A stretch of 55,902 nucleotides of DNA from assembly GCA_016928575.1 (NCBI GenBank), contig JAFGKK010000087.1, forward strand, positions 1 to 55,902. Direction: 5' to 3'. This DNA comes from Anaerolineales bacterium. GTDB lineage: Bacteria > Chloroflexota > Anaerolineae > Anaerolineales > RBG-16-64-43. How positions within the stretch are numbered: position 1 is the first letter of the stretch; every line of letters begins with the position of its first letter. This document shows, in pieces, positions 7,158 through 35,619 of the stretch. Position numbers and translations under genes: made by a program. The notes below the pieces were generated by a model. The model did not search any database and was not told the origin of the DNA. It was given only the letters and a program-made list of their open reading frames with translations.

Positions 7158-7553
7158 CTCGGGGATATTGTAGCACGGGCGGACCACGGGCGATTCCCGC
7201 CCACGCTCCCCCGCCGGAATGCCCGCCGCCGGCGTTTAACCCGCGGCCATTAGGTTCGAGATGCACGGCGAAGAGCGATGAAGGAGGAACGATCCCGTTT
7301 CGCTTTTGCGGGAAGTTGGGCGGGCGGCCGACGGTAATTATTCTCCGGCGTGAATTCGATCGGTGGAGGAAGCATTCCCCCGGTCGGTAGTCCTTTTTGC
7401 CAAGCGGGGTTAAAATTGCGCCGCGATCGCCAAGCAGAGGGTTGAAAATGCGATGGAAGATGGTCGGCCCGATCTAAGCCGGGGCGGGGCTCGGCCGGCT
7501 TGTTCCACGGCCTGCGGCAAGCAATGCTTATTATAGGAAGCGCGGGAGGGCTT
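7158..7553. promoter_or_regulatory. divergent intergenic region, extended -10 at 7167-7175
   Basis: This 396-base region separates a minus-strand regulator from a plus-strand lipoprotein gene. On the minus strand TGC-TACAAT ends 9 bases before the regulator ATG, an extended -10 promoter without a clear -35. On the plus strand TATTAT at 7529-7534 and GGGAGGG at 7544-7550 precede the lipoprotein ATG, but no convincing -35 is seen. Nothing else is recognised here. Confidence 0.5.
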
Positions 7554-8870
7554 ATGCGGGTTTTCCGGCGGGGACGTCTGGCCGGCATCGGGGCGGTTTT
7601 GGCGGTCATCCTGGCGGCATGCGGACAAAGCGCCGGCGACGGCGGGGCTGTCACGCCGATGGAATCCCCCACGCAATGGCAGCTGCCGCCGGCCTTCACG
7701 CCGACCCTCAGCGCAACGGCGACCCTCGAACCGCAGGCGGAGCCCTCGGCAACCCTAACCGCGCCGCCCGCCCCGGCGATGACGTTCCGGCCCCTCGCGG
7801 CCGGGTGGAACCATACCTGCGCCGTCACCGCCGAGGGGGGAGTGATGTGCTGGGGAAGAAACGATAACGGCCAGTTGGGAGACGGCTCCCGGACCAATCG
7901 AAACCGGCCGGTCGGCGTGAAGGGCCCAACGGTCCTTGCCGTGGCGGTCACCGCCGGATGGGGCCACACATGCGTCCTAACCGAGGACGGCGGCGTCCTG
8001 TGCTGGGGCCGCAACAAGTACGGCCAACTTGGCGATGGGACGAACCAGCGCAGCAGCGAGCCGGTGGCCGTATCCGGGTTGGATTCCGGCGTCGTCGCGA
8101 TTGCGGCCGGAGATGACCACACCTGCGCGCTGACCGCTTCGGGCGGCGTGCAATGCTGGGGGTTGAACGAATCTGGCCAACTCGGCGACGGCACGACCGA
8201 ATCGCGGAATACCCCCGTCGACGTTCCGGCGCTCAAGGATGGCGCGGCGTTCATTGCGGCCGGGACGGCCCACACCTGCGCCGGGACTCTCCGCGGGGAG
8301 GTGATGTGCTGGGGGAACAACGAACTGGGGCAGTTGGGCGACCGCTCGGAAAGAACCGCCTGGTACGCTCCGGCGCCCGTTGTCAACCTCTCCGGAGGCG
8401 TCGCCGCGCTGGCCGCCAAAGGCGGACACGCGTGCGTCCTGACCGAAGCGGGCGGTATTCTGTGCTGGGGGCAGAATGCGTACGGGCAACTCGGCGATGG
8501 AACCAAGCAAAACCAATCCGCCCCGGTGAACGTCGCCGGCTTCGACGGTGCGGCGGCGGGCCTCGCGGCCGGATGGAGCCAGACCTGCGCGTTTTCCGCG
8601 GACGGCGTCCTGAGGTGTTGGGGGTGGAATTTCTACGGCCAGTTGGGCGATGACTCCGTCGTCAGCCGGCTTCAACCGGTGGAGGTGAAGGGCATCACCG
8701 GCAAGGTCGCCGCAGTCGACGGCGGCGGAGGGCACACCTGCGCGCTGACGGACGACGGCGCCGTGCATTGCTGGGGATTCAACGAAAGCGGTCAGCTGGG
8801 CGATAAAACCAACCAGGATCGCCTGCTTCCGGCAATCGTAAGCGGAATCACCGCCGAAGTGAAATCCTGA
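7554..8870 (+). CDS. RCC1-repeat (BNR-like) beta-propeller lipoprotein
   Basis: 438 residues. The N-terminus has an RRGR n-region, a hydrophobic core and lipobox LAAC, so the mature protein is probably lipid-anchored outside the membrane. A Thr/Pro/Ala-rich spacer leads into seven repeats of about 50 residues with the signature 'HTCAVT..GGVMCWGRNDNGQLGDG', typical of bacterial RCC1 repeats that fold as a seven-bladed propeller. Each repeat carries a Cys in 'HTC' and another in 'CWG', so within-blade disulfides are likely in the extracytoplasmic protein. The start is set by GGGAGGG three bases before the ATG; an earlier in-frame ATG at 7500 would spoil the signal peptide. Binding partner unknown. 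Confidence 0.85.
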   Translation: MRVFRRGRLAGIGAVLAVILAACGQSAGDGGAVTPMESPTQWQLPPAFTPTLSATATLEPQAEPSATLTAPPAPAMTFRPLAAGWNHTCAVTAEGGVMCWGRNDNGQLGDGSRTNRNRPVGVKGPTVLAVAVTAGWGHTCVLTEDGGVLCWGRNKYGQLGDGTNQRSSEPVAVSGLDSGVVAIAAGDDHTCALTASGGVQCWGLNESGQLGDGTTESRNTPVDVPALKDGAAFIAAGTAHTCAGTLRGEVMCWGNNELGQLGDRSERTAWYAPAPVVNLSGGVAALAAKGGHACVLTEAGGILCWGQNAYGQLGDGTKQNQSAPVNVAGFDGAAAGLAAGWSQTCAFSADGVLRCWGWNFYGQLGDDSVVSRLQPVEVKGITGKVAAVDGGGGHTCALTDDGAVHCWGFNESGQLGDKTNQDRLLPAIVSGITAEVKS

Positions 8871-11652: not shown

Positions 11653-11784
11653 CCCGGCCTGCGGAGAACGCTTTGAGCGAGAAGAAGAGATTTGCGCAGG
11701 AAGAAAGGAGGAACCCCGGCGACCATTGATGGCAACGACGATCCCGTCGAATCAAGACTGGAATCCATCCAAGGAGGAAACCCT

Positions 11785-13794
11785 ATGAGCAAGCGCAAGA
11801 TCACCAGACGCGAATTCTTGCAGGTTACCGCGATGACCGTGGGCGGCACCACCCTGGCGGCCTGCGGCACCGCCACCCCCACGCCGGCCCCGACCACCGC
11901 GCCCAAGCCCACGGCCGCCCCCACCGTGGAGACCGGCGCCGCTTATAAAGAACCGGCCATGCTGGAATCCTTGGTCGCCGACGGCACACTGCCGCCGGTT
12001 GCCGAGCGTTTGCCGGAAAATCCGTGGGTCGCCCCCGTCCTGGACAGCAACGGCGTCTCCGGCGGGATTATCCATCGCGGCTACACCGGCCCGGGCGACA
12101 AATGGGGCATGTCCAAACTCTGCGACCGCGGCATGGTCTGGTTCGACCTGGACCTGGTTATGCAGCCGCGTCAGTGCGAATCCTGGGAGGTCAACGAGGA
12201 CGGATCGCAGTACACCTTCCATATCCGCAAGGGCATGAAGTGGTCCGACGGCGTGGAATTTAAATCGAGCGACGTCCGCTTTTGGTACGAGCAGGTCAAG
12301 CTGAACAAGACCCTCTACCCCGCGACGGACGGCAAGTGGTGGACCGGCAGCAGCGACGCCAAGCGCTATATGACGGTCGAAACGCCGGACGACTACACCT
12401 TCATCTTCAAGTACCAGGACCCCAAACCGCTGTTGATCTACATCATCGGCCGCGAAGGGATCGGAACGCCCGAGCACTACATGAAGGAATGGATCATGGA
12501 CACGGCGACCGACAAGGACGCCTTGCAGGCCAAGGTCACCGCGGCGGGCTTCGAATCCTGGGACAAGTACTGGATCGACAACCGGCAGTTCTACATGTGG
12601 AACACCGAACTGCCGCACCTCGGCCCCTGGACCGCTAAGAACGATCTCAACTCGGAAAAGTGGATCATCGAACGCAACCCCTACTTCTTCGGGGTCGATT
12701 CCGACGGCATGCAGCTCCCGTACCTCGATGCGGTGCACAGCCGGAAATTCGCCGACACCCAGACCTTCAACCTCTGGATCGCCAACGGCGAGATCGACTT
12801 CCAGGCGCGCCGGGTGCAGGTCGGCGATTACACCTACTTCAAGGAAAACGAATCCTCCGGCGATTACCAGGTCGTGGTCTGCCCGTCGGCCCGGCACATG
12901 GTGGTGGTGCTCAACCAGGCCAGCAAGAACGAGCAGCTGCGCGCGTTCTTCATGAACCGCGACGTGCGGATCGCCCTCTCGCTGGCGATCAACCGGCCCG
13001 GAATCAACGAGTTGAACTACCTCGGCCTGGGCACCCCGCGCCAGTACAGCCCGTTGACCCTCTCGCCGCAGTACTACGAAAAACTCTCGAACGCCTACAT
13101 CGAGTACTATCCGGCCAAGGCCAATCAGATGCTCGACGACGCCGGATACGCCGCCAGGGACGCGGAAGGCTTCCGCAAGTATTCGGACGCCGAAGACGCG
13201 GAGACGATCTTCTTCGTCCTGGAAGGCCAGTTCGGCGCCGGAACGCCCGACGAGGACGCCGGCCAGCAGGTGGTCAAGATGTTCAAGGCCGTCGGCGTGA
13301 AGTGCGAGTACAAGTTCGTGGAGCAGACGCTCTACAACCAGCACTACACCTCCAACGACATGGACGCCGCCTGGTGGTTCGCCGACCGGACGGTCGTCCC
13401 GCTCGCGGCCGAAGCCCTCATCTTCCGCGGCGTGGCAAGCGACCGGCCCTTCGTCGACGCCTACAACAAGTTCTTCGACGATCCCGAAAACCCGATCGCC
13501 ATCGAACCGCCGGCGGACCACTACGTCCGCAAGCTCCACGACCTCTGGGACCAGATCCTCAAGACCGGCGATCCGGCCGCGCAGAACGACCTCTTCCGCC
13601 AGATGCTCGACATCTGGGCCGAGGAACTGCCCATGATCGGCGTGGTCGGCGAACTGCCCGCGCTGACCATCGTCAAGAACGGGCTCAAGAACTTCGCCTC
13701 CAGCCCGAACGACGACACCACCTGCGACGAGTACGTCCGCAATCCCGAAACGCTCTTCTGGGAGGATCCGTCGCAGCACATGGACGACGCGTAA
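11785..13794 (+). CDS. extracellular solute-binding lipoprotein, Opp/Dpp family (SBP_bac_5)
   Basis: 669 residues. It starts KRKITRREFLQ, a twin-arginine-like motif, followed by a hydrophobic stretch and lipobox LAACG, then a Thr/Pro/Ala linker. The body has family-5 landmarks such as 'WEVNEDGSQYTFHIRKGMKWSDGVEFKSSDV' spread over the early region and a C-terminal domain with NRDVRIALSLAINR. The size is above that of typical peptide-binding proteins (about 540), as often seen in oligosaccharide-binding members. The start has AAGGAGG 8 bases upstream. It captures the ligand for the two permeases that follow. A xylan or glucuronate oligosaccharide ligand is inferred from the GH115 gene downstream. 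Confidence 0.88.
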   Translation: MSKRKITRREFLQVTAMTVGGTTLAACGTATPTPAPTTAPKPTAAPTVETGAAYKEPAMLESLVADGTLPPVAERLPENPWVAPVLDSNGVSGGIIHRGYTGPGDKWGMSKLCDRGMVWFDLDLVMQPRQCESWEVNEDGSQYTFHIRKGMKWSDGVEFKSSDVRFWYEQVKLNKTLYPATDGKWWTGSSDAKRYMTVETPDDYTFIFKYQDPKPLLIYIIGREGIGTPEHYMKEWIMDTATDKDALQAKVTAAGFESWDKYWIDNRQFYMWNTELPHLGPWTAKNDLNSEKWIIERNPYFFGVDSDGMQLPYLDAVHSRKFADTQTFNLWIANGEIDFQARRVQVGDYTYFKENESSGDYQVVVCPSARHMVVVLNQASKNEQLRAFFMNRDVRIALSLAINRPGINELNYLGLGTPRQYSPLTLSPQYYEKLSNAYIEYYPAKANQMLDDAGYAARDAEGFRKYSDAEDAETIFFVLEGQFGAGTPDEDAGQQVVKMFKAVGVKCEYKFVEQTLYNQHYTSNDMDAAWWFADRTVVPLAAEALIFRGVASDRPFVDAYNKFFDDPENPIAIEPPADHYVRKLHDLWDQILKTGDPAAQNDLFRQMLDIWAEELPMIGVVGELPALTIVKNGLKNFASSPNDDTTCDEYVRNPETLFWEDPSQHMDDA

Positions 13795-13928: not shown

Positions 13929-14915
13929 ATGCTCGGATACATCCTGCGCCGGATCGCGATCATGATCCCGACGCTGATCGTCATCTCCATCATCACCTTC
14001 ATCATCATCCAGCTGCCGCCGGGGGATTTCCTGACCTCGTACGCCGCCAGCCTGCGGTCCCAGGGCGAAGTCGTCGACGAGGCCGAATTGGAAGTGATGC
14101 GCGAACGCTATGGGCTGAACCAGCCCGTCTACGTGCAATACGCAAAGTGGATCTGGGGGATCGTATCCCGCAACGACTGGGGGCAGTCGATGTCGTTGCA
14201 GGTGCCGGTCAAGGACCTGATCTGGCAGCGGATGGCGCTTTCGATGGTCCTGTCGGTGGTCTCGCTGATCGTCGGCTGGTTCATCGCCATCCCGCTCGGG
14301 GTGTATTCCGCCACGCACCAATATTCCATCGTCGATTACGTCGTAACCTTCATCAGCTTTATGGGGATCGGCACGCCCAGCTTTTTGCTGGGGCTGGTCG
14401 TGATGTACGTTGCCATGAACTCCCTCGGGCTTTCCGTGGGAGGACTGTTTTCCGACAAATATCTGCTGGCGCCCTGGTCGTGGGAGAAGGTCGTCGACCT
14501 GGCCAAGCACATCTGGATTCCGATTTCGATCCTGGCGTTCAACGGGACGGCCGGCGGGCTGCGCACCACCCGCGCCAATTTGCTGGACGAGCTCAACAAA
14601 CCGTACGTCGAGACGGCGCGCTCCAAAGGGCTGAAGGAAGGGCGTGTCATCTGGAAGTACCCGGTCCGCGTGGCGCTCAACCCCTTCTTCAGCACCGTGG
14701 GCTGGGAACTGGCCAACCTGATCGGCGGAGCCACCTTGCTGTCGATCGTCCTCAACCTGGAGACCGAAGGCCCGATGCTGCTCAACGCGCTGACCGCCCA
14801 AGATATGTACCTGGCGGGCAGTTTCCTGTTCCTGCTCAGCATCATGACGGTGATCGGAACCCTGGTGTCCGACATTCTCCTGGCGTGGGTCGACCCGCGC
14901 ATCCGCATGACGTGA
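13929..14915 (+). CDS. oppB: ABC transporter permease, OppB/DppB family
   Basis: 328 residues, integral membrane subunit. The start LGYILRRIAIMIPTLIVISIITFIIIQLPPGDF is the classic N-terminal segment and loop of DppB/OppB proteins. The cytoplasmic coupling (EAA) motif is visible as ETARSKGLKEGRVIWKYPVR. About six membrane segments fit the family length. A GGAGG site precedes the ATG by 5 bases. It forms the translocation pore with the next gene's product. Confidence 0.9.
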   Translation: MLGYILRRIAIMIPTLIVISIITFIIIQLPPGDFLTSYAASLRSQGEVVDEAELEVMRERYGLNQPVYVQYAKWIWGIVSRNDWGQSMSLQVPVKDLIWQRMALSMVLSVVSLIVGWFIAIPLGVYSATHQYSIVDYVVTFISFMGIGTPSFLLGLVVMYVAMNSLGLSVGGLFSDKYLLAPWSWEKVVDLAKHIWIPISILAFNGTAGGLRTTRANLLDELNKPYVETARSKGLKEGRVIWKYPVRVALNPFFSTVGWELANLIGGATLLSIVLNLETEGPMLLNALTAQDMYLAGSFLFLLSIMTVIGTLVSDILLAWVDPRIRMT

Positions 14916-14953
14916 ACCGGAGGGCCGCGCCTTCCGTGCCGCCGCGAGGGAAT

Positions 14954-16093
14954 ATGCCGAAGCCGCCCAAGGTTGTCTTGGAAAAGGAAGCCCAGATAGA
15001 GGAGAAGATCGCCGTCGCTTCGCCGCTGACGATGATGTGGTGGAAGTTCCGCAAGCACAAGATGGCGGTGGCGAGCAGCGTGTTCCTGGTTTTCATGTAC
15101 CTGTTGGCGGTCTTCTGCGAGTTCGCTTCGCCCTATCTGCCGGATGAAACCCTCGCCCGCTACAAATCGGCGCCGCCGTCGGTCATCCGCCTCGTCGACG
15201 CCTCGGGCAGGCTGCACCTCCCGTTCGTGTATCAAAGCGAGGTCTCGCGGGATCCGGAAACCCTGCGCACCATCTACACCGAAAACCCCGAAATCCGGCA
15301 TCCGATCAAGCTCTTTGTCAAAGGCCCGCCCTACAAATTTTGGGGGCTGTGGGAAACCGACATCCACCTGTTCGGGTTGGACGCGTCGACCGAGGAGGAG
15401 CGCCTGATGCTCTTCGGCGCCGACCGGATCGGGCGCGATGTGTTCACCATGACGATTTACGGCGGGCGCATTTCGCTCTCGATCGGCCTGATCGGCGTAG
15501 CCATCAGCCTGAGCGCGGGGATCATCATCGGCGGAATTTCGGGCTACTACGGCGGCGGCGTCGACAACGTCATCCAGCGGATCATCGAATTCATCCGATC
15601 CATTCCGCACATCCCGCTGTGGATGGCGCTCTCGGCCGCGCTGCCCCTGGAGTGGTCGGTCCTTAAGGTGTATTTCGCCATTTCGATCATCCTTTCGCTG
15701 GTCGGCTGGACGAGCATGGCCCGCACGGTGCGCGGCCGCTTCCTAGCGATGCGCGAGGAGGATTTCATCCTATCGGCCCGGCTGACGGGCTCGAGCGAGG
15801 GGCGCATCATCCTGGTGCATATGGTGCCCTCTTTCCTGAGCTACATCATCGCCATCCTCACCCTGGCCGTTCCGTACATGATCCTGAGCGAGACGAGTTT
15901 AAGCTTCATCGGCTTGGGCCTGCGCGCGCCGGCCGTCAGCTGGGGCGTGCTGCTGGCCGAGGCGCAAAACGTCCGCTCGATCGCGCTGACGCCGTGGGTC
16001 TTTTGGCCGGCGGTGGCGGTCATCTCGACCGTGCTGGCGTTCAACTTCCTGGGCGACGGAATGCGCGACGCCGCCGATCCCTACGCGCGGTAG
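14954..16093 (+). CDS. oppC: ABC transporter permease, OppC/DppC family, with long extracytoplasmic insert
   Basis: 379 residues. One N-terminal membrane segment (about 38-58) is followed by roughly 100 residues without hydrophobic stretches (SPYLPDETLARY to FGLDASTEEERL), then LFGADRIGRDVFT, the usual entry into the permease domain, and five further segments. The coupling motif is SARLTGSSEGRIILVHMVP. Ordinary OppC proteins have a shorter loop after the first segment; the insert would face the binding protein and resembles permeases I associate with oligosaccharide importers. The start ATG has GAGGG a few bases upstream; a much longer in-frame extension overlaps the previous permease and is rejected. 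Confidence 0.88.
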   Translation: MPKPPKVVLEKEAQIEEKIAVASPLTMMWWKFRKHKMAVASSVFLVFMYLLAVFCEFASPYLPDETLARYKSAPPSVIRLVDASGRLHLPFVYQSEVSRDPETLRTIYTENPEIRHPIKLFVKGPPYKFWGLWETDIHLFGLDASTEEERLMLFGADRIGRDVFTMTIYGGRISLSIGLIGVAISLSAGIIIGGISGYYGGGVDNVIQRIIEFIRSIPHIPLWMALSAALPLEWSVLKVYFAISIILSLVGWTSMARTVRGRFLAMREEDFILSARLTGSSEGRIILVHMVPSFLSYIIAILTLAVPYMILSETSLSFIGLGLRAPAVSWGVLLAEAQNVRSIALTPWVFWPAVAVISTVLAFNFLGDGMRDAADPYAR

Positions 16094-16102
16094 GAGTCAG
16101 CC

Positions 16103-17155
16103 TTGGACCAAAACAACCTGCTCCTGAAAATGACGGACCTGAAAACCTATTTCTTCCTCGACGAGGGGACGGTCAAGGCCGTCGACGGCGCCGACATGGA
16201 GATCCGCAAGTGCAGTACCCTTGGGGTGGTGGGCGAGAGCGGCTGCGGAAAAAGCGTCGCCGCGCGGTCGATCATGCAGATCGTCGCCAAGGGTGGACGG
16301 GTGGTCGACGGCAAAATCCTGTTCCATCACCAGTTGTGCGAGCCCGGCGCGGACCGGCGCGGGAGTCCGTCGGCGGAAATCATCGACCTGGCCAAGCTCG
16401 ATCCGCAGGGGGAGGCCATCCGCGCGATCCGCGGCGCCGAGATTTCGATGGTGTTTCAGGAGCCGATGACATCCCTCAGCCCGGTCCACACCATCGGCAA
16501 CCAGATCGGGGAAGTGATTTCCCTGCACCAAAAATTGTCGCCGAAATTGGCGCGCGAGCGGGCCATCGAAATGCTCGACCATGTCGGCATGCCCCTCCCC
16601 GGGCGCACCGTCGACCGCTACCCGCACGAGCTTTCCGGCGGCATGCGCCAGCGGGCGATGATCGCCATGGCGCTTTCGTGCCATCCCAGCCTGCTGATCG
16701 CCGACGAACCCACCACCGCGCTCGACGTGACCACCGAAGCCCAGATCCTTGCCCTGATGCGCCGCCTGCAGGAGGAGCTCGGGATGTCGATCCTGTTCAT
16801 CACCCACAACCTGGGGGTGATCGCGCAGATGGCGGACCGGGTGGCGGTGATGTACCTGGGGAAGGTGGTGGAAGACGCCGCGGTGGACGAGCTGTTCTAT
16901 AACCCCCTGCATCCCTACACCCAGGCGCTGCTGCAATCCATCCCGCGCCTGGGGTTTAAGCAGGGGCGCGCAGAGCGGCTGGCGTCCATCAGCGGTTCGG
17001 TGCCGGATCCGTACAACCTTCCCAAAGGCTGCCCGTTTCATCCGCGCTGCGCCCGGCGCGTTCCGGGCGTGTGCGAGAAGGAAGAACCGCCCCGCGTGAT
17101 CGTCGAGCCGGGGCACGAAGTGCGCTGCGTTCTCTACAAGCCGCCGTCGGGATAG
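16103..17155 (+). CDS. oppD: Opp/Dpp-type ABC transporter ATP-binding protein (OppD-like), TTG start
   Basis: 350 residues, second ATPase of the importer. Walker [10 protein letters not shown]-loop [12 protein letters not shown], signature [15 protein letters not shown], Walker B LLIADEP and switch FITHNLG are all present, with the C-terminal Cys-containing oligopeptide extension [11 protein letters not shown]...C. The TTG start at 16103 is supported by TAGGAG overlapping the stop of the permease gene 9 bases earlier. It ends the transporter cluster, 125 bases before the GH115 gene. Confidence 0.9.
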
Positions 17156-17280
17156 AATACAATACGTCCGCTTGCCGACCGCACCGGGAAAGGCCAAGAT
17201 AGCCGGAGGAGGAATCTCGGCCTTTTTCTTCGGCGCGGATGGAGGACGGGCGTGCGGATCCCCGTCCAGGAGGTGACGCT

Positions 17281-20121
17281 ATGGTCGAAGCTACGCTCGA
17301 TCCTTTTGCCGCGAGGGCTCCTTCCTATATCTCCTTCGAGGAACGGGAAGGGGCCTTTCCGTTGTCGACTACGCGGCGATCCGCGCCTTTGTGCGTCTCC
17401 CCGGAGGATCATCCGGGAGTGGTCCGGATCGCCCGGCTGCTGCAGGAGGATCTCCGCCGGGTGACGGACGCGGAGCCCGACCTGCTCCAGGACTCGGTTC
17501 CGTGCGCGAAGGCGGCGGTTCTGATCGGGACGCTCGGCCGCAGTCCGCTCCTCGACCGGCTGGGGAAAGCCGGGACGTTCGACGCGGTGGGCTTGGCCGG
17601 AAAGCGGGAGGCGTTCGTTCTGCAAACGGTCCGCCATCCGCTTCCCGGCCTGGAAAGCGCGCTGGTGATCGCCGGCAGCGACAAGCGCGGAACGCTGTAT
17701 GGAATGCTCGACCTTTCCCTGCGGATCGGCGTCTCACCCTGGTATTGGTGGGCGGACGTGCCGGTGCCGAAGCGGCGCGGGCTGTTCGTCCTGCCGGGGC
17801 GCCACACCCTGGGCGAGCCGGCCGTGGTCTACCGCGGCATTTTCATCAACGACGAATCGCCCTCGCTCGACAAGTGGGCGCACGAAACCTTCGGCGGGTT
17901 CAACCATGCCTTTTACGAAAAGGTCTTCGAGCTGATCCTGCGTTTGAAGGGCAACCTGCTCTGGCCGGCGATGTGGGGGCGCGCCTTTTACGACGACGAC
18001 CGCCTGAATCCGGAGTCGGCCGACCTGTTTGGGATCGTGATCGGGACTTCGCACCACGAGCCGATGATGCGGGCGCATCAGGAATGGTCGCGCTACGGAA
18101 CCGGATCCTGGAACTACCAAGCCAACGAGCAGGTCCTGAGGGAATTCTGGGAGGCCGGCATCCGCAGCATGGGCCAGAAGGAAACCATCGTCACCCTGGG
18201 CATGCGCGGCGACGGCGATATGCCGATGACCACAGAGACGAACCTCGAACTTCTGCAGCGGATCATCCGGGATCAGCGTGGGATCCTCGCCCGCCTCACC
18301 GGGAAGGATCCGGCCGAAATTCCGCAGCAATGGGCGCTCTACAAAGAGGTGCAGGAATACTACGACCAGGGCATGCAGGTGCCCGACGACGTCACCCTGC
18401 TCTTTTCCGACGACAACTGGGGCAATATCCGCCGCTTGCCTGAGCCCGGCGCGCCGCCCCGGAGCGGCGGATACGGCGTCTACTACCATTTCGATTACGT
18501 GGGCGATCCGCGCAATTACAAGTGGCTGAACACCAGCCCGATTGCGCGGACCTGGGAGCAGATGCATCTGGCGTACCGCCACGGCGTGCGGCGGATATGG
18601 ATCGTCAACGTCGGCGACATCAAGCCGATGGAGTTTCCGGCGTCCTTCTTCCTGGACTACGCCTGGAAGCCCGAAACCTGGCCGGCGGAACGCCTGCCCG
18701 AATACACCCGACTTTGGGCCGAACAACAGTTCGGCCCCGGGCACGCGGAAGCCGTCGCCCGGATTCTCGCCCAGTACACGCAGTTCAACAGCCGCCGCAA
18801 GCCCGAACTGCTCAGCCCGGAAACGTACAGTCAGGTGAACTACCGCGAAGCCGAAACTGTTGCCGGCGAATACCACCGGTTGGCCGAGGAAGCCGAGCGG
18901 CTTCAAAACGCCCTGCCGGAGGAATATCGAGATGCCTACCACCAGCTGGTGCTCCACCCGGTGAAGGCTTGCGCCAACCTGAACGCGCTTTACGTCGCGG
19001 CCGGCCGCAACCGCCTGTACGCCGGCCAGGGCCGGGCCGCGACCAACGACTTGGCCGAAGAGGTCCGGAGGCTGTTTGCCAGGGACGCGGAGTATTCCCG
19101 CTATTACAACGAAACGATGGCGGCGGGCAAATGGAACCACATGATGGACCAGACGCACATCGGATACACGACCTGGCAGCAGCCGAAGGAAAACGTCATG
19201 CCCGAGCTGCGGGAGATCGAGCTCCCCGACGCGGCGGACATGGGCGTGGCGATGGAGGGCAGCGGCGCTTGGTGGCCGCATGCTGCGGCCGAGGCGGTTC
19301 TGCCGGAATTCGATTGCTACCGGCGGCCGGCGCGCATCCTGGAAGTGTTCAATCGCGGCCGCCGGCCTTTCGACTTCGAGGTCCGGACCGAACAGCCTTG
19401 GCTGTCCGTCTCCCCGGCCCGGGGCACGGTGGAAAAGGAGCGCCGGCTGGAGGTGCGGGTGGATTGGGACAGGGCGCCGCGGGGCGCAAGCCGTGCGGCG
19501 CTGACGGTCATCGGCCCGCGCGGCGCGCGGGTTGTGGTGCAGGCGCCCGTGCATAATCCGTCGGCGCCCAAAGCGGAGCAGGTGTGCGGGTTCGTCGAGG
19601 GCGGCGGCTGTGTTTCGATGGAAGCGGAGCACTACAGCCGGGCGGTGGAGACGGCGTCGGTCCGCTGGCTGCGGATCCCGGATTTCGGCCGGACCCTTTC
19701 GGGCATGACCCCGATGCCGGTCACGGCTCCGAGCCAAACCCCCGGCGGCGAAACTCCCCGCTTGGAATACCGGATGCATCTCTTCCGCGGCGGCAAGGTG
19801 CGCGTGCTGGCGTATCTGGCTCCGACCCTCGACTTCCGGAATGCCCAAGGCCTGCGCTACGGCGTTTCCTTCGACGACGAGCCTCCGCGGACCGTACGTT
19901 TCCTGGTGACGAATCCCCATCCGGATTGGATGAAGGCGGTCAGCGACAACATCATCCTCGCCGATTCCGAACACGACCTCGGAGCGCCGGGAGAGCATGT
20001 CTTAAAATTCTGGATGGTGGATCCGGGCGTGGTCCTCGAGAAGCTTGTCGTCGACACCGGCGGCGTGAAGCCGAGTTATTTGGGGCCGCCGGAGAGTTAC
20101 CGCCGGCTCGATCCCGCATGA
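17281..20121 (+). CDS. glycoside hydrolase family 115 alpha-glucuronidase
   Basis: 946 residues. Family GH115 enzymes release glucuronic or 4-O-methyl-glucuronic acid from xylan or xylo-oligosaccharides. Motifs consistent with the family include the central INDESPSLDKWA, FYEKVFELILRLKGNLLWPAMW, GTSHHEPMMRAHQEW, GMRGDGD, DVTLLFSDDNWGN and the C-terminal beta-rich domains. No signal peptide is seen, so the enzyme should be cytosolic and act on imported oligosaccharides, matching the transporter just upstream. The ATG at 17281 has AGGAGG 7 bases upstream; 14 earlier in-frame codons are possible but lack such a site. The stop overlaps the next ATG (ATGA). I infer the family from motifs; activity is untested. 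Confidence 0.87.
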   Translation: MVEATLDPFAARAPSYISFEEREGAFPLSTTRRSAPLCVSPEDHPGVVRIARLLQEDLRRVTDAEPDLLQDSVPCAKAAVLIGTLGRSPLLDRLGKAGTFDAVGLAGKREAFVLQTVRHPLPGLESALVIAGSDKRGTLYGMLDLSLRIGVSPWYWWADVPVPKRRGLFVLPGRHTLGEPAVVYRGIFINDESPSLDKWAHETFGGFNHAFYEKVFELILRLKGNLLWPAMWGRAFYDDDRLNPESADLFGIVIGTSHHEPMMRAHQEWSRYGTGSWNYQANEQVLREFWEAGIRSMGQKETIVTLGMRGDGDMPMTTETNLELLQRIIRDQRGILARLTGKDPAEIPQQWALYKEVQEYYDQGMQVPDDVTLLFSDDNWGNIRRLPEPGAPPRSGGYGVYYHFDYVGDPRNYKWLNTSPIARTWEQMHLAYRHGVRRIWIVNVGDIKPMEFPASFFLDYAWKPETWPAERLPEYTRLWAEQQFGPGHAEAVARILAQYTQFNSRRKPELLSPETYSQVNYREAETVAGEYHRLAEEAERLQNALPEEYRDAYHQLVLHPVKACANLNALYVAAGRNRLYAGQGRAATNDLAEEVRRLFARDAEYSRYYNETMAAGKWNHMMDQTHIGYTTWQQPKENVMPELREIELPDAADMGVAMEGSGAWWPHAAAEAVLPEFDCYRRPARILEVFNRGRRPFDFEVRTEQPWLSVSPARGTVEKERRLEVRVDWDRAPRGASRAALTVIGPRGARVVVQAPVHNPSAPKAEQVCGFVEGGGCVSMEAEHYSRAVETASVRWLRIPDFGRTLSGMTPMPVTAPSQTPGGETPRLEYRMHLFRGGKVRVLAYLAPTLDFRNAQGLRYGVSFDDEPPRTVRFLVTNPHPDWMKAVSDNIILADSEHDLGAPGEHVLKFWMVDPGVVLEKLVVDTGGVKPSYLGPPESYRRLDPA

Positions 20122-20666
20122 TGAACGAATCCCGGCGGCCGCCCAACGGATCGGCGGGAATCCCGTGCGCGCGCGGTTGTTCGAGGTTCCGGATCCTGTT
20201 GGACTGGACGGCCGGATTTCTGCTGGCGATGGTCATTGCCTCCCTGGGGCACGAATTGTGGCTGGTGTTCGTCGTCCGGACACTGCACGGCGACCAGTAC
20301 GTCGTTCCTTTGGCGCACATTGCCTATTGCATGATCGCCGGGCTGATCTGGTTGGTTTTTTTCCTCGTCAGCCTGGAACACTTGAAACGGTCGGCAGGCC
20401 GGGGGACGTTTTGGGGAAGCGTCCTTCGGATTCTCGGTGAGCTGTTGCTGGTCCTTGCTCTGGGGGAGGCCTGCCTCATGGCCTACGGGTTCCATCCCGC
20501 CGACCGGGTCAGCTTTCTGCTGACGGCGCTGGAAGGTGCGGCGGGTGCGGGGATGTTGGCGCTTTCCGGCCGCTTCGCCGGGCGCTTCCCGGCGGACGCC
20601 GCAGCCGACCAAGGACATTTACCGCGCGGCCGATTCCCTGCAGATCGTTGCGAAAGGACGCCTTAA
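20118..20666 (+). CDS. small four-helix membrane protein, unrecognised
   Basis: 182 residues with four hydrophobic segments (about 30-55, 67-93, 100-125, 135-150) and an Arg-rich N-terminus and C-terminus. It starts inside the GH115 stop codon with an ATGA overlap, so translation is probably coupled; a second ATG follows immediately. I recognise no family. Codon bias looks like the neighbours up to about residue 160; the last 20 residues are Arg/Pro-rich and could be out of natural frame. Role unknown; membership of the uronate locus rests on position only. Confidence 0.55.
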   Translation: MMNESRRPPNGSAGIPCARGCSRFRILLDWTAGFLLAMVIASLGHELWLVFVVRTLHGDQYVVPLAHIAYCMIAGLIWLVFFLVSLEHLKRSAGRGTFWGSVLRILGELLLVLALGEACLMAYGFHPADRVSFLLTALEGAAGAGMLALSGRFAGRFPADAAADQGHLPRGRFPADRCERTP

Positions 20667-20714: not shown

Positions 20715-23270
20715 ATGACGATGGAAACCCTGGGATACCCCTTGGCCGACGGCTACATTCACCATTGGCTGGTGGCCGGACCGCAGGCCGTTCCGGTGGA
20801 GATCGAGCAATCCCCCGCCGGGGCGGAAGAGAAGCGGCGGATCGCAAGGCGTTTTCATCAAGCGGACATCGGTGTCGAGGGCGATCCGGTGGAGTACGGG
20901 GAGTATCACATCGGTGAAATTAAAGATCGGTGGCGGTACGTGCGGACCCGGCATGACCATTTGGTGGATCTTTCCGCCGACTACCCCTCCGTCCGCTATC
21001 TTCGCGCCTGGGCCTATGCCGAACTCTGGAGTACGACGGACCGGGATGTGACCGTCCGCCTCACAACCCATGGTCCGGCGGATTTGTGGATCAACGGACG
21101 GCATATCCACCGCCGGGAGCACTTTCAGGAACCGCTGCCGGCCACGGCCGCTTTCCCGGCCCGGATCAGCGAGGGTGTCAACCGATTGGTGGTGCGGTTC
21201 GAATCCGTCGCCGTGCGCGCAGGCCCGCTGGCCATGGCCCTGCGGTTGACCGGTCTGCCGGAGAAGAAAGGACCCGACGAAAAAGCGGTCCGCATTCCGA
21301 CCTGCGCTCCGGCGGCGCGCTACCGGCTGAAGCTGGAAGAGTTGTTTGAAGCCTGTCATACCCGGCAGGATGTTTTCACCCGCAACGAGAAGATCATGGT
21401 CTATTTGCCGGAAGGGAAACGTACGGCCGAGGTTCCTTTCGTGATCCGCCTGCAGTCGCCCGAAGCCAGAATATACGCCGAGGCCAAGCGGGACGGCACG
21501 CGGTCCGAAGCCCAACAGCCGATGGGGTATCCCTACCAATCCCCGGAGGGCGACTACCGGTTGCGGTTTTTGCCGATCCCCGAGGAATTCTACGAGAAGA
21601 ACGTCCGGATCACCCGCTACCGGGATCTGTCCACGGTGACGAACGAGTTTTCCCTCCGGCCATACGGAACCTATCCGGAACGGAAACGCGAGTGCCTGCA
21701 GGATGCCGCCCGCCGCCGAAGCGGCTTGTTCTCCGAGATCGCGAAAATGGAGGGGGGCTGGTGGAAGGATCTGGATCCTTCGGCTGTCCGGCAGGCTGCG
21801 GAGGAGGTGAACGCGCATGCCGCCGATTCGGTGCTTTCGCTGTGCGGCTTGCTGGGGGCGGAGTTCCGCTATTCCAAGGCAGAACGGTTTCCAGCGGACC
21901 TGCTTCCGCCGCTCGAAACATGCATTCTCGGCTATCGGTATTGGGACGACGAGCCGGGCGGCGACGCCATGGATTTCCGCGGCGAAAGCCGCGCCATCCT
22001 CTTCCACGCCTGCGAGATCCTGGCGGGACAGCTGCATCCGGATGGGGTCTTTGTCCACTCCGGAATGACCGGACGGCGGCACCGGGAGAAGGGGGAACGG
22101 CTGGCCGCGGAGTGGCTGGAGAAGCGGCTGCGCCGCGGTTTTGCGGAATGGGATTCCAGCCTCGGATTCGCGGAGATCGTCCTTGCCCTCTCCACCCTCA
22201 CCAGCCTCGCCGAAGACGACCGGATGGTGGAGCTGGCGGCGCTCGTGCTGGACAAGCTGTTTTTCACCATCGCCGTCAATTCCTTCCGCGGAGTATTCGG
22301 TTCCACCCAGGGGCGCGCGCAGACTTCCCAAATCCTGACCGGATACCGCGAAGCCGCCTCCGGAATCACCCGCCTGTTGTGGGGCATGGGAATTTTTAAC
22401 GCGCGGAACGCCGCGCCGGTGAGCTTGGCGTGCTCGACGTACGAGCTCCCCCCCTTAATCGCGGCGATCGCCGCCGATTCGCCCGCGGAAATCTGGAGCC
22501 GCGAACGGCACGCGGCGGGGGAGCCGGGCGGAGCCGTTGTGGACAAAGTGACGTACAAAACCCCAGACGGAATGTTGTGCTCCGCTCAGGATTGGAGAGC
22601 CGGCGAAATGGGTTCGCGGGAGCACATCTGGCAGGCCACCCTGAGCCCGGCGGTGACGGTGTTCGCCTCCCACCCGGCTTGTGCCTCGGAAGAAGACGCC
22701 CGCCGCCCGAATTTCTGGCTTGGAAACGTCCGCCTGCCCCGCGTCGCCCAGTGGAAGGATCTGCTCGTCGCAATCTACCGGCCGGAGGACGACGATTGGA
22801 TGGGATATACCCACGCCTATTTTCCGGTGCACGGGATGGACGGATACGAGATCCGGGAGGGATGGGCTTTTGGCCGGGTCGGGGACGGCTATATCGCCCT
22901 GACGGCCGCCCGGGGGCTGGAGTTCATGAAAACAGGCGACAGCGCTTTTCGTGAGTTGCGCTCGACCGGAACGCCCAACGTGTGGGTGTGCCAGATGGGG
23001 CGGGCCGCCCTGGACGGGGATTTTGAATCCTTCAAGAGCAGGGTGCTGGAGATGCCTTTGAAAGTCGACGGCGACCGGGTGGAGGTCACCGGCCTGCGCG
23101 GCGGGCAGTGTCGTTTCGGGTGGGAATCCCCGTTTCTACTCGACGGAAAGGAACAACCGCTCGGGAATTTCAAACACTACGAGAACCCATATTGCACGTG
23201 TGAAATGGACGCGCCGCAAATGGAGATCCGTTTTGGGGCGGATATCCTCCGGCTGCATTTTGAGGACTAG
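20715..23270 (+). CDS. 851-residue protein of unrecognised family, possibly carbohydrate-active
   Basis: 851 residues, no signal peptide. The N-terminal 190 residues look like a beta-sandwich module (LRAWAYAELWSTTDRDVTVRLTTHG split over strands, then GPADLWINGRHIHR, a motif seen in sugar-binding domains of glycosidases). Residues about 330-560 are strongly helical (AAEWLEKRLRRGF, LGFAEIVLALSTLTSLA), like an alpha/alpha toroid, and the rest is beta-rich with Trp, Tyr and His (YTHAYFPVHGMDGYE). This order recalls heparinase-type lyases and toroid glycosidases, but I cannot assign a family. GGGAGAAAAGC precedes the ATG. Placed 48 bases after the membrane gene in the GH115 locus, it is a candidate novel enzyme for uronic-acid oligosaccharides. 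Confidence 0.75.
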   Translation: MTMETLGYPLADGYIHHWLVAGPQAVPVEIEQSPAGAEEKRRIARRFHQADIGVEGDPVEYGEYHIGEIKDRWRYVRTRHDHLVDLSADYPSVRYLRAWAYAELWSTTDRDVTVRLTTHGPADLWINGRHIHRREHFQEPLPATAAFPARISEGVNRLVVRFESVAVRAGPLAMALRLTGLPEKKGPDEKAVRIPTCAPAARYRLKLEELFEACHTRQDVFTRNEKIMVYLPEGKRTAEVPFVIRLQSPEARIYAEAKRDGTRSEAQQPMGYPYQSPEGDYRLRFLPIPEEFYEKNVRITRYRDLSTVTNEFSLRPYGTYPERKRECLQDAARRRSGLFSEIAKMEGGWWKDLDPSAVRQAAEEVNAHAADSVLSLCGLLGAEFRYSKAERFPADLLPPLETCILGYRYWDDEPGGDAMDFRGESRAILFHACEILAGQLHPDGVFVHSGMTGRRHREKGERLAAEWLEKRLRRGFAEWDSSLGFAEIVLALSTLTSLAEDDRMVELAALVLDKLFFTIAVNSFRGVFGSTQGRAQTSQILTGYREAASGITRLLWGMGIFNARNAAPVSLACSTYELPPLIAAIAADSPAEIWSRERHAAGEPGGAVVDKVTYKTPDGMLCSAQDWRAGEMGSREHIWQATLSPAVTVFASHPACASEEDARRPNFWLGNVRLPRVAQWKDLLVAIYRPEDDDWMGYTHAYFPVHGMDGYEIREGWAFGRVGDGYIALTAARGLEFMKTGDSAFRELRSTGTPNVWVCQMGRAALDGDFESFKSRVLEMPLKVDGDRVEVTGLRGGQCRFGWESPFLLDGKEQPLGNFKHYENPYCTCEMDAPQMEIRFGADILRLHFED

Positions 23271-23817: not shown

Positions 23818-24795
23818 TCACTCGAATTCCTCGGATTCGTCGTCGGTGTAAAAAAGCCCGAGGTCGTCACGGGTCGGGTTCTCCTCGGCGGCGAGCAATT
23901 GCCGTTCCTGCTGTTCCCGCGCCCGGGCGGCCGCTTCCTCCATCGACCGTAGCCGCTCGACGACCCCGCACTCGCGAAGCAGCTGCTTCCCTTGCGCAAA
24001 AAGTTCCGGACTGCCGCAGATCCGCACGGATTCGTCGAATATTTTGCATGCCAACATCCGTTCGAAGGTATCGAAAGCGGATTGCTCCCGCAATTTTTGG
24101 AACCGCTTGACGACGTAATCGATTTCCTCGCGGAAGGCGGGGTGCTTGAGGTATTGATACTTTTTCCGGTACACGGCTTCGTCCAGCCGGGCGACCAGGT
24201 CATCGGGCGCCTCGTCCCCGACGACCACCACGATGTCCAAATCCGACCCGCAAACCATGCTGCCCGTACTGCGTTCCGGCCTGTCCACGGCATGGGCCAT
24301 TTCATAGACGATATCGCCGGCCAAGACCGCACAAAAAGGTTGCTGGCCTTCGCCCCCGGCGGCGAAAGGTTCGGCGATCTCGGTCAGAATCTGCGTTGCA
24401 AGCTCCCGTTTCTTGCGGCTGATTTCTTGGATCGTCGAATGGAGTTCCCGCGCACGCCTGTCCAGCGCGGCGGGATCCTTCGCCAAGCCCACCGCCGTGT
24501 AGGTGAGGAACTCCCGCAAAATCGAAGGGGACAGGCGCAGGTATCCGGCCACCCGCCGGTCAAGGCGCAAATATCGCCGGCCGATCCTGCGGACCGCGAG
24601 TGCGGGCGACAGTAGGCAGGCCTTCCACAGCGGAAACGCCTCGCCGCCCAAGGCTTGATGGAGTCCGGCTCCGGTTTGGGGACCGGATTGCTTCAACAAA
24701 CCGATGATCGATTCCCGCATGGGCTTCGGCTCCGGAATCTTTTCCAAGGATCGAGCGCGGCGTGCCGCCGGATCCGACTTTCCCCTGCGGGTCAT
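23818..24795 (-). CDS. HTH-like plus nucleotidyltransferase-like domain protein
   Basis: 325 residues. After a basic N-terminus, residues about 26-95 (IIGLLKQSG...YLRLDRRV.GYLRLSPSILREFLTY) look like a winged-helix module. A helical linker leads to a region with TGSMVCGSDLDIVVVV (about 182-197), matching the GS...DxD core of the polymerase-beta nucleotidyltransferase superfamily. The C-terminus is helical, Glu/Arg-rich and ends in an acidic tail. The ATG overlaps the stop of the NagB-like gene (ATGA), so the two are translationally coupled and probably work together. Nucleotide and acceptor are unknown; the transferase assignment is by motif only. Confidence 0.65.
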   Translation of the reverse strand: MTRRGKSDPAARRARSLEKIPEPKPMRESIIGLLKQSGPQTGAGLHQALGGEAFPLWKACLLSPALAVRRIGRRYLRLDRRVAGYLRLSPSILREFLTYTAVGLAKDPAALDRRARELHSTIQEISRKKRELATQILTEIAEPFAAGGEGQQPFCAVLAGDIVYEMAHAVDRPERSTGSMVCGSDLDIVVVVGDEAPDDLVARLDEAVYRKKYQYLKHPAFREEIDYVVKRFQKLREQSAFDTFERMLACKIFDESVRICGSPELFAQGKQLLRECGVVERLRSMEEAAARAREQQERQLLAAEENPTRDDLGLFYTDDESEEFE

Positions 24796-25751
24796 CCGCG
24801 GGCGTCGACCATTTCATACCCGCGCGCCTCGACCTCGGGCCGGCGGGCCAACAGCTGGGCGCCGGCCGTTTCGTCCAGGACAAACACCATCCGCCCGCCC
24901 CGCTTTGCGAATGCCTGGCCGTAGGATGCCGGGACTGCGCAGGTCACCGGCCCCAGGACCGCCTCGCATACCGGGCTGGTTTTCCGGGCGCCGTTGGCGA
25001 GCAGAACGACCGTCTTGGCCTGAAAGATCAGCTCCACGCCCATCGAGACCGCGTAGCGCGGGCTGGTGTCAACCGAGGCGAAGTGCCCATCTGCGACGGC
25101 GTTCTCCACCGTGCTGTCGTCCAAGCGGACAAGCAGCATGGGATTGCCCTCGAAAGGGATCCCGGTTTCGTGGAATCCGACATGGCCCCGTCCGCCGATC
25201 CCGACCACGTGAAGGTCGATTCCGCCGCAACCGGCGATTTTCCGCACATAGGCGTCGAGAATCCGTTCTTGCACCTCGCGCAGAAAGCCGCAGGCGCCGG
25301 ACCGGATGACGACGGCTTTTCCCTGATCGGCGCCTTGCAACTCGTAGCAATCCGGATGCCGCTCCAGCGCATCGATTAATTCGTTCTGGTCGATCAACGT
25401 TCCCCAAGGCACGTTGGTTTCCCGGAATTTGCGGTTCAGCCGGGAGAACAAGACCGAGATCATGAAAAAACAGTAGGATTCTGAATGCAGTCCGCGCTGC
25501 TGCGCGTTCTCCCCGGGCAGGCCCACGTATTCGTCGAGGTTGAAGGATCGGATCCGACCCGGATCGATCCGCCCGGAGTTGAAAGCTTCCGCGAGATTTT
25601 GGTACAGCCCGGTGGGGGAACTGCCCGTGGCGAGGCCGAGTACGTACTCCTCGGCCGCCGCTTGCCGCTTGCGGATGTCCTCCTCGACGATGGCGGCCGC
25701 CGCCTTGCTCATCTGGTCGAAATCGCGGGTAATGACGATGGTCAATGGCAT
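24792..25751 (-). CDS. glucosamine-6-phosphate deaminase (NagB) family protein, divergent
   Basis: 319 residues, longer than E. coli NagB (266). Family motifs are clear: LATGSSPTGLY (phosphate loop), FNLDEYVGL (Asp-Glu of the active site) and GIGGRGHVGFHE. In E. coli the last motif reads GVGNDGHIAFNE and contains the catalytic Asp-His-Glu; here the His and Glu stay but the Asp aligns with Arg and FNE is FHE. There is also an insertion around residues 130-165. The enzyme may be a deaminase or isomerase for a different amino sugar phosphate, or inactive. The start chosen is the ATG (MPLTIV); a TTG five codons earlier is possible. Coupled to the nucleotidyltransferase-like gene. Confidence 0.75.
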   Translation of the reverse strand: MPLTIVITRDFDQMSKAAAAIVEEDIRKRQAAAEEYVLGLATGSSPTGLYQNLAEAFNSGRIDPGRIRSFNLDEYVGLPGENAQQRGLHSESYCFFMISVLFSRLNRKFRETNVPWGTLIDQNELIDALERHPDCYELQGADQGKAVVIRSGACGFLREVQERILDAYVRKIAGCGGIDLHVVGIGGRGHVGFHETGIPFEGNPMLLVRLDDSTVENAVADGHFASVDTSPRYAVSMGVELIFQAKTVVLLANGARKTSPVCEAVLGPVTCAVPASYGQAFAKRGGRMVFVLDETAGAQLLARRPEVEARGYEMVDARG

Positions 25752-25813
25752 GTTGTCCCGTCTCAAGGGAAGCGATTGGTTGAGTTGACAGGCGGGGGAT
25801 CGAAGGGGAGCCG

Positions 25814-34890: not shown

Positions 34891-35619
34891 TTTTCCATCG
34901 GGTTGATTCTAGCAGGGTGTTGAAAAAGCCTAGCGATGTCATTGCGAGGAGCGAAGCGACCCCGGCCCACCCCGCGCCGGGGCGGGCGAAGCAATCTCCT
35001 CCTATTTCCAGCGAAGGAGATCGCTTCGCTCCCTGCGGTCCTTCGGAATGACACCCTTTACGGGCTTTATCAACAACCTGCTAGTGTTGTGCCCTAAAAA
35101 TCCCTCTCAAAATTTTAGGGTTCAAAGGGCTGTCTGGAAAATGGGTAAACGGTTTTTCCGTTGAAACATCGCCTTCTGGCGGTGTCGTCATTCTCGCGCC
35201 GGCCCTCTGCGTGTTCTTCGCCGGGGGTGTCTTTCGCGGGGATCCAGGGATTGGGAGTTGTGGATGTCTGCGAAATACAATCCGCTTCCCTCGCTTTGCG
35301 AGGGCGGGCGCGGGGAAGCTATGCCGGGGCGAAGGACAAAACCTATAGCACCGGTGATGTTATGCTGAGATTATTCTGTCGAAATAAGATGTATGAGTAT
35401 TTTCGAATCCGTGAGATAAATTACTAGTTGCCCATCCAGGGCGAACACGGAGATACGCGGATTTTTCCGAACCGCTCCGCGTCCCTCGTGGAACACGGCC
35501 TTCCCCGGTTCTTTTTTTTTGCGATACAATCGGCCGCACAATGCGAGCGGTTTTGCCCGGGTCCGCTGTGGAGGGCGGACGGACCGCGGGAAGGGAAGAA
35601 TCTGCCGTCGAGGTTGGAG
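34891..35619. other. 729-base gap inside the aro cluster
   Basis: It contains the inverted-repeat element at 34909-35084 and a hairpin with arms CCCTAAAA (35092-35099) and TTTTAGGG (35113-35120). A possible -10 TACAAT lies at 35525-35530 without a good -35. An 88-codon frame at 35161-35427 has no coding character. Nothing else is recognised. Confidence 0.55.
34909..35084. repeat. MITE-like inverted-repeat element, 176 bp
   Basis: Both ends read CTAGCAGG(G/T)TGTTGA inwards, a 15-bp terminal inverted repeat with one mismatch. Subterminal sequences are also related: TGTCATTGCGAGGAGCGAAG at about 34937 and the inverted TCGCTTCGCTCC...GGAATGACA at 35021-35053. Nested hairpins (34988-35000 with 35015-35027) fill the centre. 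The 'GTCATTGCGAGGAGCGAAGCGA' type sequence is one I know as a dispersed repeat in diverse bacterial genomes. There is no coding capacity; it would be a non-autonomous element or a folded RNA repeat. No clear target duplication is seen beyond the CTAG ends. Confidence 0.82.

Follow-up and report, generated by a model that had tools for sequence, protein, structure and literature searches.

A predicted toroid-lyase-fold family with a conserved subfamily that lacks the expected catalytic residues, represented beside a GH115 gene in Anaerolineales

What does an 851-residue protein of no recognisable family do beside a GH115 alpha-glucuronidase gene in an Anaerolineales genome? The protein, here called P0001, is encoded in contig JAFGKK010000087.1 of assembly GCA_016928575.1, of which positions 1 to 55,902 make up the stretch considered here (the window). 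The initial annotation had proposed it as a candidate for a new carbohydrate-active family. Our analysis indicates a family with a predicted polysaccharide lyase (PL) fold, in which P0001 belongs to a conserved subfamily without the residues expected for catalysis. The reading frame of P0001 runs from ATG to stop through 851 open codons and is a real, intact gene, since relatives in several independent genomes align over nearly the full length (the nearest at 58-64% identity) and dN/dS is about 0.2 against the homologs at loci L010 and L018 (dS about 1.4, near saturation). The features of the locus are listed in Table 1.

Table 1. Genes around P0001 and the domains and residues discussed in the text (window coordinates).
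Feature	Positions	Strand	Basis
Opp/Dpp-type solute-binding protein, start uncertain	11692..13794	+	Pfam SBP_bac_5 E 2.3e-53
ABC permease, DppB-like	13929..14915	+	Pfam BPD_transp_1 E 4e-31
ABC permease, DppC-like	14147..16093	+	Pfam BPD_transp_1 E 4.8e-25; OppC_N residues 292-344
ABC ATPase, oligopeptide-transporter C-terminus	16103..17155	+	Pfam ABC_tran E 1.2e-22, oligo_HPY E 9.5e-19
GH115 alpha-glucuronidase	17239..20121	+	Pfam PF15979 Glyco_hydro_115 E 2.1e-151, GH115_C E 3.7e-61
Small membrane-like protein, start uncertain	20124..20666	+	between GH115 and P0001
P0001, predicted toroid-lyase-fold protein without Asn-His-Tyr, 851 residues	20715..23270	+	ORF, model, structure matches
Residues 1-190, N-terminal beta-sandwich resembling the GH2 sugar-binding domain or PA14	20715..21284	+	VIA
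Residues 191-306, second beta domain	21285..21632	+	model DSSP, alignment A1
Residues 313-587, helical toroid	21651..22475	+	model DSSP; toroid lyase matches
Ser425-Arg426 in place of Asn-His	21987..21992	+	alignment of 68 cores
Gly484 in place of Tyr	22164..22166	+	alignment of 68 cores
Residues 593-851, antiparallel beta-sheet domain	22491..23267	+	model DSSP; toroid lyase matches
Glu636-His637	22620..22625	+	residue counts in 66 rows
His700	22812..22814	+	63/66 rows examined; 7/7 L090-L096

The genes for an Opp-type binding protein, two permeases, an ATPase, GH115 and a small membrane-like protein all lie 5' of P0001 on the same strand. The DppC-like frame is overlong at its 5' end, and its true start is probably near 15020. 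The GH115 assignment made earlier for the neighbouring gene is confirmed by its Pfam matches; P0001 itself does not match the Glyco_hydro_115 profile, though its neighbour does. The membrane-like frame matches no Pfam family, but it aligns with L010:7490-7951 (42% identity over 142 residues, E 3e-31), and in L010 and L018, too, it lies next to the P0001 homolog. No signal peptide was seen by sequence inspection at the start of P0001 or GH115, which would place both proteins in the cytoplasm. No sensor gene stands beside P0001 in the window, which counts against the binding role favoured below. The genome of P0001 carries a GH88-type gene on another contig, and therefore it cannot be argued that this organism lacks a pathway for unsaturated uronates. 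The nearest named relatives of the locus are found in metagenome-assembled genomes of Anaerolineales and Anaerolineae.

Elsewhere in the window we observed an AroK-AroB-type fusion (35428-37185, + strand; shikimate kinase at residues 73-225, 3-dehydroquinate synthase at 294-546), an RCC1-repeat protein with six to seven repeats (7500-8870, + strand; WD40_RLD E 1.9e-112), and, on the strand opposite to P0001, a protein of 1290 residues that matches GAF and STAND/AAA ATPase models (1769-5641). Also on that strand, 3' of P0001, is a partial match to glucosamine-6-phosphate isomerase/6-phosphogluconolactonase (24792-25766, E 5.8e-10).

The full-length model of P0001 (mean pLDDT 94.0, pTM 0.93) bears out the layout that had been read from the sequence, a beta-sandwich, a helical toroid and a beta-rich C-terminus: DSSP assigns beta domains to residues 4-307, helices to 320-587 and a beta-rich region to 593-848. 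A helical toroid followed by an antiparallel beta-sheet is the plan of the toroid PL superfold, and by prediction P0001 has this plan. Foldseek searches with the whole protein were swamped by GH2 and other sandwich domains, and the core (residues 308-851) was therefore folded alone (pLDDT 95.0, pTM 0.94). The 50 VIA matches listed for the core consist without exception of toroid lyases and dermatan sulfate epimerase, in agreement with the suggested likeness to polysaccharide lyases [best match heparinase III 5jmf, Z 12.2, rmsd 7.3, 398 aligned; further matches 4fnv, Z 11.8, 4mmi, Z 11.6, and PL17 Alg17c, Z about 10]. At E <= 0.001, five of the six Foldseek matches of the core are toroid lyases or the epimerase and the sixth, 8h3a, is unrelated [E 2.4e-5 for 6hzn, 5.8e-5 for 3a0o, 1.4e-4 for 4fnv and 4.3e-4 for 9o3q], with low TM-scores of at most 0.37 among the matches listed. 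VIA Z-scores of about 12 with rmsd values of 5-9 Å, and the Foldseek values, could by themselves be explained by a common helical arrangement; we accept the lyase fold because the list of matches is uniform and both domains are covered.

The predicted resemblance to PL12 heparinase III, PL15, PL17, PL21, PL35 and PL39 extends over residues 317-820 of P0001. The core is also matched by 1cb8 (Z 11.7, rmsd 5.5, 413 aligned) from PL8, the family of chondroitinase AC, hyaluronate lyase and xanthan lyase. Dermatan sulfate epimerase 1 (6hzn), the top Foldseek match of the core (VIA Z 9.9), is an animal enzyme without detectable sequence kinship to P0001. Different from the toroid PLs, the long forms of the family carry two additional N-terminal beta domains, and P0001 has no visible secretion signal. 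The first of these domains matches 3cmg (VIA Z 9.9, rmsd 2.8, 121 residues) and 6m8m (Z 9.7, rmsd 3.7, 145 residues); a GH2 enzyme was considered and rejected, as the match is confined to this sandwich. The second (residues 191-306) is missing from the short-form relatives L003-L005 in alignment A1.

The view that P0001 shows no recognisable family motif held in every profile search. The best Pfam match of P0001 has E 0.24, NCBIfam gives none, and phmmer and profile searches of PDB sequences with the P0001 family recognised no lyase and no other chain. None of the 68 family cores matches the Pfam lyase models (Alginate_lyase, heparinase II/III) at E <= 0.1, and the five single matches to Pfam (E 0.056-0.098) are at chance level. 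In hhalign, the members with the Asn-His-Tyr set described below and heparinase/alginate-lyase-like (PF05426-matching) proteins from related genomes gave a probability of 0.4%, that is, no homology. Thus no clear profile match to a characterised family was found, and the fold is not foreign to carbohydrate enzymes. Within titles and opening abstracts of the literature we recognised no description of the family, which does not prove that none exists.

The family is represented by one match in the genome of P0001, which is one of 5 positive genomes among 61 (E <= 0.001), in 66 of the 396 genomes sampled from the class to which the window belongs (E <= 1e-60), and in 185 confirmed loci of GTDB genomes, of which the best 80 were kept. 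Among 72,556 plasmid records, 199 contain it as well, 123 of them from Rhizobium, 40 from Pseudosulfitobacter, 12 from Sinorhizobium, 3 from Haladaptatus and the rest from other hosts. Rhizobia, roseobacters and a haloarchaeon are thus represented, and the annotated copies are called 'hypothetical protein'. Members occur in two lengths, a long form of about 850 residues and a short form of about 670 that lacks the N-terminal beta domains and has an extra stretch after residue 598. Alignments A2 and A3 hold 68 cores, namely 64 of the 80 loci, P0001 and L003-L005. The other 16 loci are near-copies, truncated or frame-broken (L027, L031, L037, L038, L039, L049-L052, L057, L058, L060, L062, L063, L070 and L079); L110-L138, L140 and L141 stand outside the analysis.

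Two classes are apparent in these alignments. In 46 of the 68 cores there is an Asn-His pair at positions 425-426, within the motif Glu-Asn-His, and all 46 have Tyr484; we call this the NHY class. The Asn and the Tyr are 59 residues apart in 44 of the 46, and the distance from the Asn to His637 is 219-220 residues in 25 of them and longer in the short forms, because of their insert. Asp370 and Asp373 are present in 46 of 46 and His532 in 44 of 46. The remaining 22 cores have no Asn425-His426 and none of them has Tyr484. P0001 is in this NHY-less class, with Ser425, Arg426, Gly484, Ala370, Val373 and Gln532 in place of the N, H, Y, D, D and H of the NHY class, and so the toroid Asn/His neutraliser-base and the Tyr acid expected of the toroid PL superfold are absent from it. 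The plasmid-borne members L090-L096 (hosts Rhizobium, Shinella, Thioclava, Pseudosulfitobacter, Subdoligranulum and Haladaptatus) have Glu-Asn-His, Tyr and His700 in seven of seven, and His at the 637 column in four of seven. Nine loci have second copies, typed in a quick alignment; the one in L024, truncated where the contig stops, keeps Asn-His and shows Thr where the Tyr is expected. In L013, L014, L043, L054 and L063, which hold two copies each, one copy continues after His637 with Ala-Gln-Val/Ile/Leu and the other with Trp-Gln-Ala, and a GH4 gene lies between both copies in L013, L014 and L054; such pairs may reflect a division of labour.

Does the residue set of the NHY class resemble that of known lyases? 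Table 4 of PMC12088678 lists as catalytic residues Asn336, His337, Tyr390 and His555 for an exo-heparinase, Asn192, Tyr246 and His401 for the PL35 enzyme GAGase II, Asn240, Tyr294 and His424 for PL12 heparinase III, and Asn201, Tyr258 and His413 for a PL17 enzyme. The NHY class shows the same order and roughly the same spacing of Asn-His, Tyr (about 59 residues on) and beta-sheet His, and we infer from fold, order and spacing that these residues are equivalent. Among 12 heparinase/alginate-lyase-like proteins from related genomes, nine have Asn-Asn-His and, 53 residues beyond its His, a Tyr, and the pattern was not found in three. PL8 differs, as its His and Tyr are near each other in the toroid (His233 and Tyr242 in 1RWA; PMC12088678), whereas in the NHY class the His adjoins the Asn and the Tyr is 58 residues further on. 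The family as a whole has no detectable profile relation to toroid PLs. If the equivalence holds, Asn425 and His426 at the toroid cleft would neutralise and deprotonate the uronate in the parent family, Tyr484 would serve as the acid and the beta-sheet His637 as a second base, and uronic-acid oligosaccharides would be cut in the cytoplasm by beta-elimination.

The neighbours of NHY members agree with such a chemistry. Eight plasmid loci were examined, of which three have GH88, KduI and KduD and three more have GH88 and GH28. GH88, GH28 and an importer adjoin the gene in R. anhuiense, R. lentis and R. johnstonii; GH88, KduI and KduD do so in Pseudosulfitobacter and Shinella, and in Thioclava together with a rhamnose mutarotase. 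The Haladaptatus locus differs, with oxidoreductases and isomerases nearby. In L091, on the unannotated plasmid OY725877.1 of Subdoligranulum variabile (Clostridia), two GH88-type genes, one of them Pfam-confirmed, and an MGH1-like glycosidase adjoin the gene. Near Chloroflexota NHY copies we find GH4, PL22 oligogalacturonate lyase and a PcRGLX-type protein, which we take to be PL26-like; these pectin lyases are separate families that have only the pectin context in common with the NHY members. Since GH88, KduI and KduD act on unsaturated uronates, a lyase would naturally fill the missing step in the NHY loci. It is quite likely that acidic oligosaccharides are imported, cleaved in the cytoplasm by the NHY protein through beta-elimination and passed on to GH88, KduI and KduD.

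To relate the two classes to descent, we built a tree by a quick method without columns 370, 373, 425, 426 and 484. Twenty of the 22 NHY-less rows fall into one group of 21 (SH-aLRT 94, not starred), the remaining member being a long-branched NHY row, and L028 and L074 are placed elsewhere. The class label requires 4 changes on the tree versus a mean near 19 when shuffled. P0001 groups with L010, L011 and L018 in a clade of full support; judging by their record titles, these three loci come from the same sampling project. By the Nei-Gojobori method, 11 NHY-less pairs have dN/dS values of 0.13-0.26 and four NHY pairs values of 0.085-0.156, several dS values being near saturation; for the four NHY-less pairs whose dS is below 0.8, the range is 0.13-0.15. 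The NHY-less class is under purifying selection. The proposal of a new carbohydrate-active family is partly supported: the family, with a predicted lyase-like fold and no matching profile, is a good candidate for a new lyase family, but the idea of P0001 as an ordinary, straightforward enzyme of this kind finds no support, its lineage being without the Asn-His-Tyr common to 46 of 68 cores.

The neighbourhoods of the two classes differ as well. We compared 64 classified loci (43 NHY and 21 NHY-less, the window excluded), and the resulting values are to be read as indications, given unequal flanks, a simple gene caller, uncorrected Fisher p-values and disregard of common ancestry [pectin enzymes GH4/PcRGLX/PL22, 10/43 NHY vs 0/21 NHY-less, p 0.023; receiver-domain or hybrid-sensor gene, 0/43 vs 8/21, p 4.6e-5; GH115, 0/43 vs 3/21, p 0.032; small membrane-type protein, 1/43 vs 7/21, p 0.0012; Opp binding protein, 11/43 vs 15/21, p 0.0009]. 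Throughout the window clade (window, L010, L011 and L018) GH115 adjoins the gene, although in the sample of 396 genomes of the class only 3 contain it (E <= 1e-30). An NHY-less copy lies near a hybrid protein in L042, L044, L045, L046, L065 and L068; the one in L044 joins a LacI-type sensor to histidine kinase, receiver and AraC-type DNA-binding domains. The gene for a B12-binding radical SAM protein occurs at 10 of the 43 NHY loci and at one of the 21 NHY-less loci (L013-L017, L019, L035, L043, L061, L064 and L067).

How, then, is P0001 to be explained? The reading that we prefer, and to which we give an even chance, is that the parent family is a lyase and P0001 a conserved pseudo-lyase that binds imported acidic oligosaccharides. 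In its subfamily Asn, His and Tyr are absent together, and purifying selection has retained the gene beside oligosaccharide importers; P0001 would bind the imported compounds, here probably ones processed by the adjoining GH115, and this binding would make it a sensor, partner or buffer, elimination having been lost. For the Chloroflexota subfamily at large, which would be long-lived, we suggest with less than even confidence that catalysis was exchanged for the recognition of imported oligouronides by cytoplasmic receptors, in association with the membrane protein, the Opp importer and elsewhere a hybrid sensor/receiver, or else was re-tooled around Glu636-His637 into a chemistry so far not known from this fold.

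The second of these options can be taken for P0001 itself: catalysis would have moved to the beta-sheet side, where Glu636-His637, perhaps with Arg635 and His700, would hydrolyse, epimerise or otherwise convert glucuronate-containing oligosaccharides in series with GH115. An altered working site of this kind is consistent with the near-invariance of H637 (65 of the 66 rows examined), W639, Q640, R676, Q679 and H700 (each in at least 63 of 66, NHY-less class included), with the purifying selection and GH115 adjacency described above, and with Glu at position 636 in 20 of 20 main NHY-less rows (L028 and L074 are excluded from these counts) versus Gln in 41 of 46 NHY rows. However, Glu636 is also present in 5 of 46 NHY members and is not diagnostic of a new chemistry, and the toroid cleft side (370, 373, 426, 484, 488 and 532) is variable in the NHY-less class with no new fixation; besides Glu636, no new invariant appears in that class at an 80% threshold. 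We consider this re-tooling rather unlikely, yet it is the chief competitor of the pseudo-lyase reading, and the fixation of Glu636 speaks for it.

It is improbable, too, that P0001 is still a uronate lyase with reduced or other residues, for instance with Arg426 or Arg635 as neutraliser and the beta-sheet His as base. Neutralisers do vary among known lyases, with Arg314 in a PL15 alginate lyase and Glu205 in heparinase II according to PMC12088678, and the H226A variant of the PL15 enzyme VBAly15A is reported in PMC11921355 to retain 18% activity. The beta-domain His is retained in P0001 at a spacing that fits known lyases, its placement being read from sequence position. But the Y280A variant of VBAly15A is inactive (PMC11921355), and the corresponding position is Gly in P0001, with no Tyr there in any of the 22 NHY-less rows; this absence of the Tyr speaks for a loss of elimination. 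Position 426, moreover, is R, G, Y and H across the four window-clade members, and thus no neutraliser is fixed there.

We regard it as very improbable that the entire family consists of toroid glycoside hydrolases, or is related to lyases in structure alone, with misleading neighbours. Toroid-plus-sheet folds include hydrolases, and no profile ties the family to any PL family searched; against this stand the uniform list of structural matches to lyases or the epimerase, the fitting order and spacing of N-H, Y and H, and the adjoining KduI, KduD and GH88 genes. That P0001 is a decaying, functionless pseudogene is hardly credible and was rejected on its dN/dS of about 0.2, since, despite the three missing catalytic residues, the frame is intact in four clade genomes and 20 NHY-less rows group together.

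Judged from predicted fold, residue pattern and neighbouring genes, the NHY branch probably represents a new and uncharacterised family of uronate-cleaving polysaccharide lyases, which would bridge the import of oligouronides and the KduI/KduD steps, and several plasmid copies now annotated as hypothetical stand in pectin/uronate operons. The NHY-less branch would exemplify a lyase fold that selection has retained after the loss of its catalytic residues, perhaps a glycan enzyme converted to a sensor or partner.
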